Translations under genes and position numbers: made by a program
IMG/VR virus record: IMGVR_UViG_3300037628_000131
Coordinates: 1-45,272 of that record
DNA: 45,272 bases
Source: a virus
Reading direction: 5' to 3' (one strand)
Part shown: positions 26,351 to 35,178 of the stretch, one piece after another
How the letters are laid out: every line of letters starts with the position of its first letter
Position numbering within the stretch: the stretch's first letter is position 1
The notes under the pieces: model-generated
Databases searched by the model: none
What the model saw: the letters and a program-made list of their open reading frames with translations, nothing else
What the model was told of the DNA's origin: nothing

Positions 26351-26454
26351 TGGCTCAACTCCCTAAAAATTACGATGGCTGACCCCACTAAAAAACAGAG
26401 GGAACCCACGCAATAAAAGGTGTAGGGCAGCAAGTCGGTAAAAAGTCTGATCAT
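26347..26454 (-). CDS. 35-aa single-span membrane peptide
   Basis: A short frame (MIRLFTDLLPYTFYCVGSLC then FLVGSAIVIFRELSQ) with one transmembrane segment. It fits exactly between neighbours with ATGA overlaps at both ends: the adenine methylase stop and the next ATG. The precise coupling supports translation. Unknown function. Confidence 0.5.
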   Translation of the reverse strand: MIRLFTDLLPYTFYCVGSLCFLVGSAIVIFRELSQ

Positions 26455-27329
26455 GCTGAATCCCTTTCAAATAGTGGCCCGTGCCCGGTTGCGTTTATTG
26501 CGGCATCGTTGAGCCAAAGAACTTCTGTGCGCTGCCGTGCGCCATCTGCAAAGGCATCCCGCGTTACTCTGTGCCATCTGGGAAAAAGCTCGTTATCGTA
26601 GAGTTTTGAAGGGTAGCCGCTCAGAACCACCATTCCCGTCAAACTATGAAGCGCATCAGCAAGATCAGCATGATCTTCGTCAGTCAGTTCAAATTTGTAG
26701 GAGCCTCTAATCTCAGCCCGGTTTGGTTCGCGGGTGCTAACAACATATGGCGGATCAACGTAATGCAGCGTGTCCACACCATCATGTTGCTTGAGCACAT
26801 CAACTGCCAGGCGGTTCTCTACAACAACTTTCGCAAGTCTATCAATCACCGCCTTAAGACTAGCAGGATAGTTTTGCCAATCATGTGCGGGCGTACTGCC
26901 GGATCGGTTGCTATTGGCTCTAAAACCTGTTTTCCATTTCGGGTTATGTCCATTGGAACCAAAGCCCATAAATGAACGCACAATCAATCTGCGGATTTTC
27001 TCAACGGGGTCATCGGTCACATCGTAAGCACCGTTAAACTCTCTGCGTGAGAACGGGGTTAGCATTATTCGCTCTATCAGCTGGGCAGATAAATCAGTAT
27101 CCCGCAGAACTTGAAACAGCGTGACAACTTCATCATCAAGATCATTGTAAATCTCGGCATATGAACGGTCTTTGCGCAACAGTATGCTTGCCGCACCGCC
27201 GTACACTTCCGTGTAAACCCGGTGCGGTGGAAAATGCTGTATCACCCAAGGCGCAAGCATCCATTTACCGCCGTGATAACGAAGTACTGGCCGTTTAGGT
27301 TTACTGACAACTGATGACGATCTGGTCAT
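26451..27329 (-). CDS. D12-class N6-adenine DNA methyltransferase (Dam-like)
   Basis: A 292-aa Dam-family enzyme. Motif X/I region: PVLRYHGGKWMLAPWVIQHF (SAM binding), then VYTEVYGGAASILLRKDRSY. DPPY catalytic motif at residues 192-195 (HYVDPPYVVST). A late VVLSGYPSKLYDN strand is also typical. It transfers methyl groups to adenine N6 in a short target, which cannot be read from sequence. It is coupled by 4-nt overlaps to the PD-(D/E)XK-like gene upstream. Likely protects phage DNA from restriction or marks it for replication control. Confidence 0.92.
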   Translation of the reverse strand: MTRSSSVVSKPKRPVLRYHGGKWMLAPWVIQHFPPHRVYTEVYGGAASILLRKDRSYAEIYNDLDDEVVTLFQVLRDTDLSAQLIERIMLTPFSRREFNGAYDVTDDPVEKIRRLIVRSFMGFGSNGHNPKWKTGFRANSNRSGSTPAHDWQNYPASLKAVIDRLAKVVVENRLAVDVLKQHDGVDTLHYVDPPYVVSTREPNRAEIRGSYKFELTDEDHADLADALHSLTGMVVLSGYPSKLYDNELFPRWHRVTRDAFADGARQRTEVLWLNDAAINATGHGPLFERDSA

Positions 27330-27958
27330 GAGGCCACCTCATTCTTGTAAACTTGCTTGTCACCCCAATCGCGGCTGCGAAGCTGCTTAATCACTGCTGG
27401 CCGTATCTTTCCGAGTGGCACCAAGTCGGCAACGCGCCTGATGATGGATGCTTTGCCATCTTTCTGTACCGCATCAACACGCAGAATTTTTGCGGTGCGC
27501 ATCAGTTCATTTTTCCAAAGAACTTCCAGCATCCGGCCTGCACAATTCATTGGCCAGTGCTGCGGCTGCTGGTCTCTGTAACGCGCGCGAGGGTTTGTAA
27601 TTTCCCCACCCGACATTGTGAGCATGTCCCAACCGGTTGGGCGGTGGCCATTGCGGTCAATCACCCCTTGAATTTCAGGCGTGGCCAACAAGTAAATGCG
27701 GGTACACACCTGTGAATACATTGCGCCCTGAAGCTTGAGCCGCGCAGGGCTGTCGCCTTTGCCTTTAATTTCAATGCCTATGATTTCTGTGGGGGTGATG
27801 GCGGCAAGATCAATGAGCGCACCGCCCCACTGCGCAAGGCTGAACTCTCTGACAACATGGGCATCAGGGTACTGCTGCAACAGCCAATTAATGCCCAAGT
27901 CCCGCAATTCGAGCGCGGTGTATTCTTTTGTGCCATCTGACGACTTTGACATGTTCAT
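27326..27958 (-). CDS. PD-(D/E)XK nuclease-like protein (MmcB-like)
   Basis: A 210-aa protein with a PD-(D/E)XK core: a strand ending in Asp50 (GGALIDLAAITP), then IIGIEIKGKGDSPARLKLQG with Glu63-x-Lys65, and a following helix/strand (YSQVCTRIYLLATPEIQGVI). It resembles MmcB-type DNA-repair nucleases and VRR-like folds. The C-terminal half contains a helical DNA-binding-like part (IIRRVADLVPLGKIRPAVIK). It lies between a cytosine and an adenine methyltransferase with ATGA overlaps on both sides, which resembles a restriction-modification layout, although a repair or anti-host nuclease is equally possible. Confidence 0.7.
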   Translation of the reverse strand: MNMSKSSDGTKEYTALELRDLGINWLLQQYPDAHVVREFSLAQWGGALIDLAAITPTEIIGIEIKGKGDSPARLKLQGAMYSQVCTRIYLLATPEIQGVIDRNGHRPTGWDMLTMSGGEITNPRARYRDQQPQHWPMNCAGRMLEVLWKNELMRTAKILRVDAVQKDGKASIIRRVADLVPLGKIRPAVIKQLRSRDWGDKQVYKNEVAS

Positions 27959-29286
27959 TCTGCGGCCTCCATCATAGTAAATTCATTTGCGCGCTTGGCG
28001 GCGAAGTGGGCTGTAAGAGCATTTCTGAGAGTGCAATACGCATACGCTGCTGCCAGCGGGGAAACCCCGTTGCCTGTGAGGCGAAGTCTGTCCATCCGAG
28101 TGGAACGCCCATAAGCCATTCTACGAACAGCGGGTTCAAGGATCGGCGCACTTTCAAGCGCAGCGAGCCAAGCCCTGTGATCTGAGGGGCCAGGGGCAAA
28201 CAGCGGCAAGTGATTGGCACCGTATTCGCCAACCGGATCACTGACCGGCCGGAACCGTGGTGTTCCATCATAGTATAGGCTTGGGCCTGCGCTGGCAGCC
28301 CATTGCGTGGGTCCGCTGCGAGCTCGCCCCGCTTCTCTGCGTCGTTCGCTCGTGGGGTATGCCAGTGGTACGCTGTCGCATACAATCCCTTTGATTGCTG
28401 GCTGTCGCCCTTCAGCCTGTACTTGTGGGCTGATGCATCCGGGGTTGGCCAATTCACCACTTCCCGGCTCAGGTTCCTGCCTTGTGTGCTGTGAAGGTCC
28501 GGGCCCGGTCTGCGGCCGTCGTGGGCGTTTGGCGTGCTCCATGTCTCTGACCACACCGTTGCCTGCGTCCGGATGTCCGGAGTGTTCCTGTTCATTTCCG
28601 ATGGGCAGTGCCCTCGGTAACTGGCCCTCGGTGTAGCCCAATGTTTCGCCTGATGTTCTAAACCCACCTGCCGCTTCTTTCCGTTTGGCATTATCCCGGT
28701 TGGTGACATGCCCTTCGGGTTGACGCGGCCGCCATTCGGTGTGTTCGGTGTCTGCCATCCATCCGGGGTTCCATGCGAGCCAGAACAGTCGTTCCCGTTT
28801 GTGGTTTGCGCCGACTTCCTTCGCTGTAAACAGGCCTGCCGCAAGCGTGAAGCCCATGTCTTGCATATAGCGAGCGACGACATGGAAGGAACCAGATAGA
28901 TGAGCCCCGACATTTTCACAGAAGACGATTGGTATTCTGGCGTTTTCGATGTGGCCGGCGATGTGAGGGAAGATGAAGCGCGGGTCGCTGGTGCCTTTTC
29001 GCAATCCAGCAAGGCTTTCACCCTGGCAGGGGTATCCGGCAATGAGGCAATCCACTTTTCCGCGCCATTTGCTGCTGTCGAAGGTGGTAACGTCAGACCA
29101 GACAGGCGCCTGATCCAAGGCCGCATCTTCCATCCGTGCCACGAGAGTGGCCGCCGCACTTGCTTCCCGTTCGACGTAACATACACTTCGGGCACCGGGT
29201 TCTGCGATGGTGAGGCCAAGGTCAAGCCCGCCGTATCCTGCGCACATGCTAATGACGCTTGTGGGATGTAATACCAAGTCATTCAC
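27955..29286 (-). CDS. C5-cytosine DNA methyltransferase
   Basis: A 443-aa enzyme starting at GTG 29286 (GTGA overlap with the previous stop). Motif I: SMCAGYGGLDLGLTIAEPGA. Motif IV: LIAGYPCQGESLAG with catalytic Cys87; the usual Phe of PCQxFS is replaced (PCQGES). Motif VI: ENV at 124-126. Motif VIII: NHKRERLFWL. Motif IX/X: MDRLRLTGNGVSPLAAAYAY near the C-terminus. Between VIII and IX is the variable target-recognition stretch with repeated 'A-D/N/Y-T/P' units (MADTEH, LANPGC, LAYPTS). The whole stretch is also open and meaningful in the +1 frame (separate entry). The methylated target is not deducible. Confidence 0.92.
   Translation of the reverse strand: MNDLVLHPTSVISMCAGYGGLDLGLTIAEPGARSVCYVEREASAAATLVARMEDAALDQAPVWSDVTTFDSSKWRGKVDCLIAGYPCQGESLAGLRKGTSDPRFIFPHIAGHIENARIPIVFCENVGAHLSGSFHVVARYMQDMGFTLAAGLFTAKEVGANHKRERLFWLAWNPGWMADTEHTEWRPRQPEGHVTNRDNAKRKEAAGGFRTSGETLGYTEGQLPRALPIGNEQEHSGHPDAGNGVVRDMEHAKRPRRPQTGPGPSQHTRQEPEPGSGELANPGCISPQVQAEGRQPAIKGIVCDSVPLAYPTSERRREAGRARSGPTQWAASAGPSLYYDGTPRFRPVSDPVGEYGANHLPLFAPGPSDHRAWLAALESAPILEPAVRRMAYGRSTRMDRLRLTGNGVSPLAAAYAYCTLRNALTAHFAAKRANEFTMMEAAE
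27972..29282 (-). CDS. Overprinted +1-frame reading frame in the cytosine methyltransferase
   Basis: A 436-codon open frame, one base offset from the methyltransferase. The part from codon 176 (28757) to the end looks like real protein: five WxTP units at codons 176, 215, 248, 278 and 307 (WQTPNTPNGG, WATPRASYRG, WSTPNAHDGRRPG, WPTPDASAHKYR, WHTPRANDAEKRGE). Then NPLFVEWLMGVPLGWTDF (383-400) and a terminal QMNLL follow. From memory, these are trademarks of the variable and C-terminal parts of another branch of phage cytosine methyltransferases. Codons 1-175 show no such features and look like a shadow. It could be expressed from an internal start or by frameshifting after motif VIII; no classic slippery heptamer was found. 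Confidence 0.45.
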   Translation of the reverse strand: MTWYYIPQASLACAQDTAGLTLASPSQNPVPEVYVTSNGKQVRRPLSWHGWKMRPWIRRLSGLTLPPSTAANGAEKWIASLPDTPARVKALLDCEKAPATRASSSLTSPATSKTPEYQSSSVKMSGLIYLVPSMSSLAICKTWASRLRQACLQRRKSAQTTNGNDCSGSHGTPDGWQTPNTPNGGRVNPKGMSPTGIMPNGKKRQVGLEHQAKHWATPRASYRGHCPSEMNRNTPDIRTQATVWSETWSTPNAHDGRRPGPDLHSTQGRNLSREVVNWPTPDASAHKYRLKGDSQQSKGLYATAYHWHTPRANDAEKRGELAADPRNGLPAQAQAYTMMEHHGSGRSVIRLANTVPITCRCLPLAPQITGLGSLRLKVRRSLNPLFVEWLMGVPLGWTDFASQATGFPRWQQRMRIALSEMLLQPTSPPSAQMNLL

Positions 29287-29438
29287 AAAGTACCTCGTTT
29301 ACCGTTTGTAAGCTTGAAGGCAGCGCATCGGGAGCAGTCCCATTCGTACCAAGGGTCAATAGGACTTGGCCCCGCTGTAAGCTCCCAGCGATGCCCTAGA
29401 AGTTTGCAAATCAAGCGGGCAACTGACGACTTTTTCAT
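29283..29438 (-). CDS. Small zinc-finger-like protein (DUF1660-type)
   Basis: A 51-aa protein (MKKSSVARLICKLLGHRWEL ... DPWYEWDCSRCAAFKLTNGK). The layout 'l.CkllGHrw.l......W.CsRC' is that of small prophage proteins of the DUF1660 type, with Cys11, His16, Cys35 and Cys38 as possible zinc ligands. It is coupled to both neighbours (ATGA and GTGA overlaps). Function unknown. Confidence 0.65.
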   Translation of the reverse strand: MKKSSVARLICKLLGHRWELTAGPSPIDPWYEWDCSRCAAFKLTNGKRGTL

Positions 29439-33024: not shown

Positions 33025-35178
33025 CTAGCTCCGTTGCTGTGGTTTGGTGTAAAGTTTTGCTGGTACGTTTGCGTGCCATGCATGCGCATGGTGTAGGTTT
33101 GGAACGTCTAGTTCCCTTTTATTTACAGCCTCCATCATTTCTCCGTTTCTGGGGCAGGTAAATTTTAAATAGAACTCTGCCTCTGGCAAGTCTGGCATTT
33201 TTATTTCTATTAAATCACCTATTTCAGGGTCAAGTGAACTGTCAATAATTTTATGGTTCAAACTGTCAAGCATCTTGTGCACGCCAATTATAGCGCACCC
33301 GGCTGCCCTCTGCTCGACATTTTTGCAGGATAAAACTTCTTGTGGTGATAAGTTTTCTTTGTCTTCAATCCAATGGCTAGGAACAGATACCCCGTGCCAA
33401 TTGTAAACCTTCCAACCGTCAGAAAACTCAATTGTAGGACCGTCATCATTATGGGGACGATTATTAAAATCAAACACCAATGAAGTTGGCCTTTCACAAA
33501 CAAAGGCCACGTCTGGGTAAAAATATCCCCACCCGCATTCAGTCACATATTTCCAATACGCATCAAAATGGCCTTGTTTGTCGTATTTAACGCCTATCAT
33601 TTGGCCGAACCTATAAAATGCCATCCACGGCATATCTTGCCCGCCCCAGAAATATGTGTTGGTGTAAACATTACCGAGGTTTTCCCCGAGGTTGTCCCTG
33701 AGGTTTTCCCTGAGGTTGGCCCAGAGGTTGGCCCAGAGGTTGGCCCTGAGGTTGGCCCAGAGGTTGGCCCCGAGGTTGTCCCCGAGGTTTTCCCAGAGGT
33801 TGTCCCCGAGGTTGGCCCCGAGGTTGGCCCAGAGGTTGTCCCTGAGGTTGTCCCTGAGGTTTTCCCCGAGGTTGTCCCCGAGGTTGGCCCTGAGGTTTTC
33901 CCCGAGGTTGTCCCCGAGGTTGGCCCTGAGGTTTTCCCCGAGGTTGTCCCCGAGGTTGGCCCTGAGGTTTTCCCCGAGGTTGTCCCCGAGGTTGTCCCAG
34001 AGGTTGTCCCTGAGGTTGGCCCCGAGGTTGGCCCAGAGGTTGGCCCCGAGGTTGGCCCCGAGGTTGGCCCAGAGGTTTTCCCCGAGGTTGTCCCCGAGGT
34101 TGGCCCTGAGGTTGGCCCCGAGGTTGTCCCCGAGGTTGGCCCTGAGGTTGTCCCCGAGGTTGGCCCTGAGGTTGGCCCAGAGGTTGGCCCCGAGGTTGGC
34201 CCAGAGGTTGGCCCTGAGGTTGTCCCCGAGGTTGTCCCTGAGGTTTTCCCCGAGGTTGTCCCCGAGGTTGGCCCTGAGGTTTTCCCCGAGGTTGTCCCCG
34301 AGGTTGTCCCCGAGGTTGGCCCTGAGGTTTTCCCCGAGGTTGTCCCCGAGGTTGTCCCTGAGGTTTTCCCCGAGGTTGTCCCCGAGGTTGTCCCAGAGGT
34401 TGTCCCTGAGGTTGTCCCCGAGGTTGGCCCAGAGGTTGGCCCCGAGGTTGGCCCTGAGGTTGGCCCTGAGGTTGGCCCCGAGGTTGTCCCTGAGGTTGGC
34501 CCAGAGGTTGGCCCAGAGGTTGTCCCCGAGGTTGGCCCAGAGGTTGTCCCTGAGGTTGGCCCCGAGGTTTTCCCTGAGGTTGGCCCTGAGGTTGTCCCTG
34601 AGGTTGTCCCTGAGGTTGTCCCCGAGGTTGTCCCCGAGGTTGGCCCAGAGGTTGTCCCAGAGGTTGTCCCTGAGGTTGTCCCCGAGGTTGGCCCAGAGGT
34701 TGTCCCCGAGGTTGGCCCCGAGGTTGTCCCCGAGGTTTTCCCCGAGGTTGTCCCCGAGGTTGTCCCAGAGGTTGTCCCTGAGGTTTTCCCCGAGGTTGTC
34801 CCCGAGGTTTTCCCAGAGGTTGTCCCCGAGGTTGGCCCCGAGGTTGTCCCCGAGGTTGGCCCAGAGGTTGGCCCCGAGGTTGGCCCTGAGGTTGTCCCCG
34901 AGGTTGGCCCAGAGGTTGTCCCTGAGGTTGTCCCTGAGGTTTTCCCCGAGGTTGTTATTCATTAAAATAGCGCGCATGAGCAAAGCCTGTGCTGGGGATT
35001 GTGCAACGAGAATAATTTTTGGCGCATCAAGACCAGCACTTATATAAAGGTTTGTTACAGCGTCCTTCGCAGCATCCCGGTTTATGGGCTTAGTCGAGAG
35101 ACCGATAGCTCTACATTCCTCCCTAAATATAGGCAACATTTCTTTCTGTTCGTCGGTTAGCTCTGTTATTTTTGTCAC
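33025..35178 (-). CDS. Tetrapeptide-repeat protein with DUF6745-like ends
   Basis: A 717-aa protein. Residues 1-75 form a globular N-domain (LTDEQKEMLPIFREECRAIG ... IILVAQSPAQALLMRAIL). Residues 76-501 are 107 consecutive N-L-x-x units with x1 = G, R or W and x2 = D, A or E. A C-domain follows (TYFWGGQDMPWMAFYRFGQM ... DGWKVYNWHGVSVPSHWIED), which I believe belongs to the DUF6745 family of phage and bacterial proteins. Leu and Asn every fourth residue could form a long solenoid or a single long amphipathic helix. It is not a pentapeptide-repeat protein (period four, not five). Function unknown. Confidence 0.85.
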   Translation of the reverse strand: MTKITELTDEQKEMLPIFREECRAIGLSTKPINRDAAKDAVTNLYISAGLDAPKIILVAQSPAQALLMRAILMNNNLGENLRDNLRDNLWANLGDNLRANLGANLWANLGDNLGANLGDNLWENLGDNLGENLRDNLWDNLGDNLGENLGDNLGANLGDNLWANLGDNLRDNLWDNLWANLGDNLGDNLRDNLRDNLRANLRENLGANLRDNLWANLGDNLWANLWANLRDNLGANLRANLRANLGANLWANLGDNLRDNLWDNLGDNLGENLRDNLGDNLGENLRANLGDNLGDNLGENLRANLGDNLGENLRDNLGDNLRANLWANLGANLWANLRANLGDNLRANLGDNLGANLRANLGDNLGENLWANLGANLGANLWANLGANLRDNLWDNLGDNLGENLRANLGDNLGENLRANLGDNLGENLRANLGDNLGENLRDNLRDNLWANLGANLGDNLWENLGDNLGANLWANLRANLWANLWANLRENLRDNLGENLGNVYTNTYFWGGQDMPWMAFYRFGQMIGVKYDKQGHFDAYWKYVTECGWGYFYPDVAFVCERPTSLVFDFNNRPHNDDGPTIEFSDGWKVYNWHGVSVPSHWIEDKENLSPQEVLSCKNVEQRAAGCAIIGVHKMLDSLNHKIIDSSLDPEIGDLIEIKMPDLPEAEFYLKFTCPRNGEMMEAVNKRELDVPNLHHAHAWHANVPAKLYTKPQQRS
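33676..34959. repeat. 12-bp tandem repeat array, 107 units
   Basis: The plus-strand unit is GAGGTT-(GT/GG/TT)CCC-(C/T/A). The hexamer GAGGTT recurs 107 times at exact 12-base spacing from 33676 to 34948 with no indel. On the coding (minus) strand it reads AAC CTC xGG GNN, where x is G, A or T and the last codon is GAC, GCC or GAA. All nine combinations occur. The array also leaves two long antisense frames open, which are by-products of the repeat. Confidence 0.97.

Follow-up and report, generated by a model that had tools for sequence, protein, structure and literature searches.

Overlapping reading frames of a phage locus that probably specify two parts of one cytosine-C5 DNA methyltransferase

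Two superimposed reading frames

The DNA analysed here (the window) is a viral stretch of 45,272 nucleotides that corresponds to IMG/VR record IMGVR_UViG_3300037628_000131. Its minus strand harbours two long open reading frames that overlap almost completely: a main frame, whose predicted product is termed alpha, and a +1 frame, whose predicted product is termed beta. The features of the locus, all on the minus strand, are as follows.

27955..29286, minus: alpha, main frame, putative C5-methyltransferase catalytic subunit; 443 aa, GTG start; PF00145, phrog_363
27972..29282, minus: beta, +1 frame, putative target-recognition array and motif IX; 436 aa, ATG start; phrog_1008, phrog_27243
29280..29296, minus: probable shared start region, from the sequence and the pattern across 80 loci; GAGG 29293-29296, alpha GTG 29284-29286, beta ATG 29280-29282
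29215..29256, minus: alpha motif I (VISMCAGYGGLDLG)
29005..29040, minus: alpha motif IV with the catalytic Cys (AGYPCQGESLAG); P86, C87 and Q88 invariant in 62 homologues
28777..28809, minus: alpha motif VIII (ANHKRERLFWL); R164 and R166 invariant
28207..28746, minus: alpha linker or shadow, residues 181-360; open, weakly conserved, predicted disordered
28027..28098, minus: alpha motif X (RMDRLRLTGNGVSPLAAAYAYCTL), residues 397-420
28758..29282, minus: beta N-terminal region, residues 1-175; overlaps alpha motifs I-VIII, constrained beyond the control
28293..28757, minus: candidate beta WxTP cassette array, residues 176 to about 330; five WxTP motifs on bases shared with the alpha ADT/ANP/AYP shadow
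28083..28145, minus: beta motif IX (RRSLNPLFVEWLMGVPLGWTDF); strongest +1 constraint (z about 35), aligns with the actinophage motif IX

Alpha is matched by PF00145 over residues 10-176 (E=1.1e-22) and by phrog_363. Motifs I, IV (PCQ), VI (ENV) and VIII (RxR) succeed one another in the order expected of a C5-cytosine DNA methyltransferase, and motif X is present at residues 397-420. Beta matches phrog_1008 ('DNA methyltransferase', 3e-19) and phrog_27243 (1e-18), two families that are both matched by all 71 of the +1 homologues tested. It was recognized in none of the Pfam, NCBIfam and PADLOC searches, and comparison of its profile with PDB sequences returned chance-level matches only. A first-pass annotation, made from the letters of the sequence, had described a +1 frame open throughout its 436 codons and bearing five WxTP units, a PRANDAEKRGE block and LNPLFVEWLMGVPLGWTDF: all of these are found in the +1 frame, in an open reading frame that runs from an ATG across 27972-29282.

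The five WxTP units lie at 28746-28757, 28629-28640, 28530-28541, 28440-28451 and 28353-28364, sites that are read as ADT, GYT, EHA, ANP and AYP, respectively, in the main frame. The main-frame A-[NDHY]-[STPA] units arise because the WxTP codons TGG CCN ACN CCN are read there as x-GCC-NAC-NCC. The earlier statement that every WxTP unit sits on an A-D/N/Y-T/P unit is thus strictly correct for ADT, ANP and AYP, three of the five, but not for GYT and EHA.

The two frames begin almost together. The beta ATG (29282-29280) is located 4 nt downstream of the alpha GTG and is immediately preceded by an in-frame TGA; the GAGG at 29293-29296 is spaced 6 nt from the alpha start and 10 nt from that of beta. 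Across 80 loci the +1 start codon is ATG in 68, is abutted by an in-frame stop in 43 and has an upstream Shine-Dalgarno (SD)-like sequence in 64, with main-frame starts a few nucleotides away, most commonly at -4 or +2. A single ribosome-binding site probably feeds both frames. The frameshift after motif VIII or internal start that had initially been invoked is not needed, as the +1 frame possesses its own start at the beginning of the gene and the SD-like sequence is common to both starts.

Conservation and distribution of the overlap

Synonymous shuffling of the main frame of the window generates a mean of 9.2 stops in the +1 frame; the observed number is zero, a value reached by none of 500 shuffles. 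The test was extended to 37 divergent genes with main-frame identity below 60%: their +1 frames contain no stop in 12,339 codons, and the remaining four frames hold 171-349 stops each. Given the main protein and codon usage, conservation of the +1 residues exceeds expectation over the whole length (overall z=67), by 0.4-1.7 BLOSUM units in each 40-residue bin, with peaks at residues 381-400 (LNPLFVEWLMGWPxGW, z about 35) and in the WxTP region. Since other control frames show some excess conservation, the D12 methyltransferase gene located two genes downstream was treated in the same way: its +1 excess is 0.08 overall, with 160 stops in 4,801 codons. When main residues are assessed given the +1 protein, conservation is strong at 1-180 and 361-420 and near zero at 181-360. 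In +1 alignments of the array, codon-position difference rates are highest at the +1 wobble position, as a +1 coding frame would predict, but this result is biased by the choice of alignment frame and is given little weight.

The second frame is therefore open and under purifying selection beyond that imposed by the first, which characterizes an overprinted gene pair. By these sequence measures the dual coding is real, both frames being genuine conserved coding sequence, and the N-terminal half of beta, which lies over motifs I-VIII, is likewise a constrained protein sequence. The first-pass annotation had regarded the 3' half of the gene as coding in two frames. Both frames do prove open and constrained, and the constraint on the +1 frame in fact extends over its entire length; the separate homologue searches and constraint analysis that it had called for yielded +1 homologues and no +1 stops in the 37 genes.

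The viral set comprises 105 loci: 101 from IMG/VR searches with either frame, three from phage records and the copy in the window. Of these, 88 have two open frames; among the remainder, the main frame is split and the +1 frame open in six, and the rest are fragments, probable sequence errors or failures of the motif filter. Many loci were retrieved with +1 queries, which biases the set towards open +1 frames; both frames are open in all 17 full-length loci recovered by the main-frame query alone. Two loci display a broken frame relation: motif X falls in the +1 frame in L065 and the relative frame is 2 in L074, probably owing to contig sequence errors or recent frameshifts. Among bacterial genome loci checked by motif, which are mostly alphaproteobacterial and include one Acidobacteria MAG, 29 of 35 have both frames open.

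The overlap is also found in the cyanophages Ssp-JY39 and Yong-M2-251 and in Acidovorax phage Alfacinha1. A distant branch includes Kagunavirus K1G, phiEc3, Edwardsiella phage eiAU, epsilon15 and Klebsiella and Salmonella plasmid records. K1G ORF31 ('C-specific methylase') and ORF30 ('Mte8-like protein'; GU196277) and the epsilon15 p22 locus show the same overlap as the window, with a +1 ORF that carries WxTP and LNPAHSRWLMG. Overall, the number of phages and prophages with this arrangement is well above one hundred. Public annotations mostly cover one half or the other: the 'cytosine-specific methyltransferase' of Alfacinha1 is the +1 ORF, epsilon15 p22 is the main ORF and the only one of the two annotated there, and both ORFs are annotated in K1G with no stated link. 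A literature search limited to open-licence papers found no published description of this overlap. To our knowledge, same-strand overlaps of about 400 codons in which both frames are conserved across distant genomes are rare outside small viruses.

Division of the motifs and the candidate recognition array

A key to the two frames is provided by actinophage enzymes that consist of one chain each: IrishSherpFalk gp71, Phinally gp5, Shauna1 gp67 and prophi104-2 gp17. Their order is motifs I-VIII, LPTP repeats, RLNPAFxEWMMGWPxGWVT or close variants, and motif X (IGNGVVPQQA). As LNPxFxEWxMG is positioned between the LPTP repeats and motif X in these chains, it is assigned as motif IX, an assignment founded on order and on alignment to single-chain enzymes rather than on a solved structure. 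A tiling profile of 427 positions was built from five single-chain actinophage enzymes: 70 of 71 +1 proteins match about positions 200-395, and all 62 main proteins match about 5-200, most of them also 401-427. In hhalign comparisons with the actinophage target-recognition domain (TRD) plus motif IX, the +1 profile scores 98.5% (E=3.7e-15); alignment of the main-frame profile is confined to its end, in motif X. Main-frame profiles match M.HaeIII and M.HhaI across motifs I-VIII only, which were also the only motifs aligned when profile A6 was compared with the PDB.

These alignments show a partition in which motifs I-VIII and X belong to the main frame, and motif IX (LNPLFVEWLMG), with the region for target recognition, to the +1 frame. 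The impression that features of another branch of phage C5 methyltransferases occur in the +1 frame is borne out: they are those of the TRD and motif IX of the actinophage enzymes. The main-frame MDRLRLTGNGVSPLAAAYAY, originally read as motif IX/X, does represent motif X; the conserved copy of motif IX is in the +1 frame. The sequence EPAVRRVADG beside alpha motif X could be a degenerate motif IX, which would count against the proposed partition; conservation at this site is mostly predicted by the +1 frame.

Split versions of the actinophage enzyme exist as well. In Upyo (gp54/53), Toaka (83/82), DrYang (77/78) and Jarcob (69/70) the second ORF is always in the +1 frame; in the first three phages, motifs I-VIII are in the first ORF and the TRD, IX and X in the second. 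The existence of fused and split versions of one enzyme implies that the parts work together. Not every such enzyme needs the array: Magnar gp43 combines motifs IX and X in a single chain that has no LPTP repeats.

The TRD and motif IX are missing from the alpha chain and match the +1 protein instead. In an AF2 model of alpha, pLDDT exceeds 90 through most of residues 10-180 and 410-440 and is below 50 over most of residues 206-356; the model gives no sign of a folded TRD. The ADT/ANP region of alpha is a shadow of the +1 WxTP array, unconserved and predicted to be disordered. Within this shadow the main frame is interrupted in nine loci (L028-L031, L058, L095 and the genome loci L172-L174), all with an open +1 frame; these loci retain motifs I-VIII and have motif X in a short ORF of its own, about 90-100 codons long. 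Elsewhere the main frame is kept open across the array because motif X lies beyond it. Modelling of beta alone was poor (pLDDT 55, pTM 0.26), and a Foldseek search with this model gave no PDB match, which says little about a chain modelled in isolation.

The WxTP array is built of units with a median length, from one WxTP or LPTP to the next, of 36 aa. The 471 units in 124 loci belong largely to recurrent types arranged in more than 100 distinct orders. Of the 294 units that make up 71 non-redundant arrays, 219 are related to a unit of a different array. Similar units within one array are scarce: one case was observed against 8.1 expected, a figure as low in only 2 of 2000 permutations. Between motifs VIII and IX there are, then, distinct modules in tandem. 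The same layout is known from multispecific phage C5 methyltransferases of the SPbeta/phi3T type, in which different recognition modules of about 40 aa follow one another between these motifs. The SPbeta/phi3T-type enzymes are single-chain, whereas the window array is in a separate frame and its cassette function is putative. The WxTP units are candidate recognition cassettes, and it may be hypothesized that each of them reads its own target. A bolder conjecture, which we put forward tentatively and rate somewhat short of probable, is that the +1 frame acts as a cassette cartridge: exchangeable WxTP units of about 36 aa would be reshuffled to yield sets of specificities, with the catalytic subunit read through the same bases and its middle being only a shadow.

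Interpretation and comparison with known enzymes

The explanation that we favour, and hold to be probable, is that the locus encodes one phage cytosine-C5 methyltransferase made as two polypeptides from overlapping frames. Alpha, initiated at the GTG, would supply the AdoMet-binding catalytic domain with motifs I-VIII, a long disordered linker and motif X; beta, initiated at the ATG 4 nt downstream from the same SD-like sequence, would supply the WxTP recognition array and motif IX. Together they would form a single active methyltransferase acting on phage DNA, presumably as a defence against host restriction. In alpha, the disordered, ADT-rich middle would be mainly a frame-shadow, open so that ribosomes reach motif X. 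From the sequences we infer the translation of beta, an alpha-beta heterodimer, the methylation activity and its targets, and the purpose of the system. The N-terminal 170 residues of beta have no known counterpart, which counts against this explanation. The +1 frames of single-chain actinophage genes keep a similar stretch over about motifs VI-VIII, YSETLPTSGMTRNG...LPTPRATDGTKGGPNQRGSSGDLMLPSAV (L116:2056-2589, L117:2335-2772 and the +1 frames of L208, L209 and L210), which may be a relic of the beta N-terminus or a second small protein.

Alternatively, ribosomes might shift by +1 near the end of motif VIII to produce a fused chain of motifs I-VIII, TRD and IX, with unshifted alpha supplying motif X. 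The order of the single-chain actinophage enzymes and the constant +1 direction of the shift fit such a mechanism, which we nonetheless regard as unlikely: frameshifting requires neither a constrained beta N-terminus nor a conserved start right after an in-frame stop, inspection by eye revealed no common slippery sequence at the junction between motif VIII and the WxTP region, and the fused chain would lack motif X. Slightly less likely again is the possibility that alpha alone is the enzyme and beta an overprinted protein with another function, such as a regulator, an anti-restriction factor or a partner. Alpha does hold motifs I-VIII and X, neither the N-terminal half of beta nor its AF2 model shows a methyltransferase fold, and some actinophage single-chain genes also retain a conserved +1 ORF; against this, the C-terminal half of beta aligns with the single-chain TRD and motif IX, precisely the segment missing from alpha, whose AF2 model is without a folded TRD.

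The first-pass annotation had envisaged two alternative target-recognition halves, and hence two specificities. Conservation of the two frames from motif VIII to motif X fits this reading, which is nonetheless very improbable, as main-frame residues 181-360 have near-zero conservation, are predicted to be disordered, are interrupted in nine relatives and are mostly unmatched by the single-chain TRD profile; the frames appear instead as complementary parts of one enzyme. The last proposal, a +1 frame that is a relic of frame-switching or open by chance or codon bias, can practically be dismissed and is refuted for the family of the window by the absence of stops and the whole-length constraint in the 37 divergent genes, even if the +1 fragments retained by fused actinophage genes may represent relics and, for four of five such genes, the longest-run test falls short of significance.

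Natural precedents exist for a C5 methyltransferase in two pieces. M.EcoHK31I, which targets YGGCCR and alongside which M.EaeI is named, has its small ORF in another frame within the large one. Its larger polypeptide carries motifs I-VIII and X and the smaller motif IX, with the TRD predicted in the larger (PMC3404938). The division of motifs is thus like that of the window, the two being compared by description; the window differs in that the TRD array is in beta, beta spans almost the whole length of alpha, and the genes belong to a phage rather than to a restriction-modification system. In M.AquI (CYCGRG), a naturally split C5 methyltransferase, the smaller subunit comprises the distal variable region and motifs IX and X (PMC3404938). 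This split resembles that of Upyo, Toaka and DrYang; at the window locus, alpha retains motif X and the overlap of the ORFs is almost full. IrishSherpFalk gp71, Shauna1 gp67 and Phinally gp5 share with the window the series of motifs I-VIII, LPTP array, RLNPAFxEWMMG motif IX and motif X, all in one frame, whereas the window parts are divided over two. A phage methylase that conceals a gene in a different frame is also known from ShiLan (PMC11855218): there the concealed gene is an out-of-frame HNH gene, a homing insertion and not a part of the enzyme.

The overlap occurs in alphaproteobacterial and gammaproteobacterial phages and prophages, and it has matches in cyanophages and an Acidobacteria MAG. 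The favoured explanation would provide a mechanistic reason for it, namely two complementary enzyme parts served by one start region, and would account for the inconsistent labelling of the +1 families phrog_1008 and phrog_27243 as 'DNA methyltransferase' or 'hypothetical'. It further suggests that, were just one frame cloned, many phage 'Dcm' genes would seem to be inactive or mis-specified. Should the WxTP units be recognition cassettes, phages would possess a natural modular system for choosing methylation targets.

Neighbouring genes on the minus strand include one for a sce7726-family protein (27326-27958; NF033832, phrog_984), whose ATG overlaps the alpha stop by 4 nt. A stretch of this protein, IEIKGKGD...RLKLQGAMY, recalls PD-(D/E)XK nucleases, and the product is possibly a nuclease beside the methyltransferase. 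The gene at 26451-27329, two genes downstream of alpha, encodes a D12-class N6-adenine methyltransferase (PF02086), so that the phage carries two DNA methyltransferases. Elsewhere in the window, two ORFs of 465 and 451 codons on the plus strand (33568-34965 and 33692-35047) lie antisense to a 717-codon ORF on the minus strand (33025-35178), possibly as an effect of composition only.
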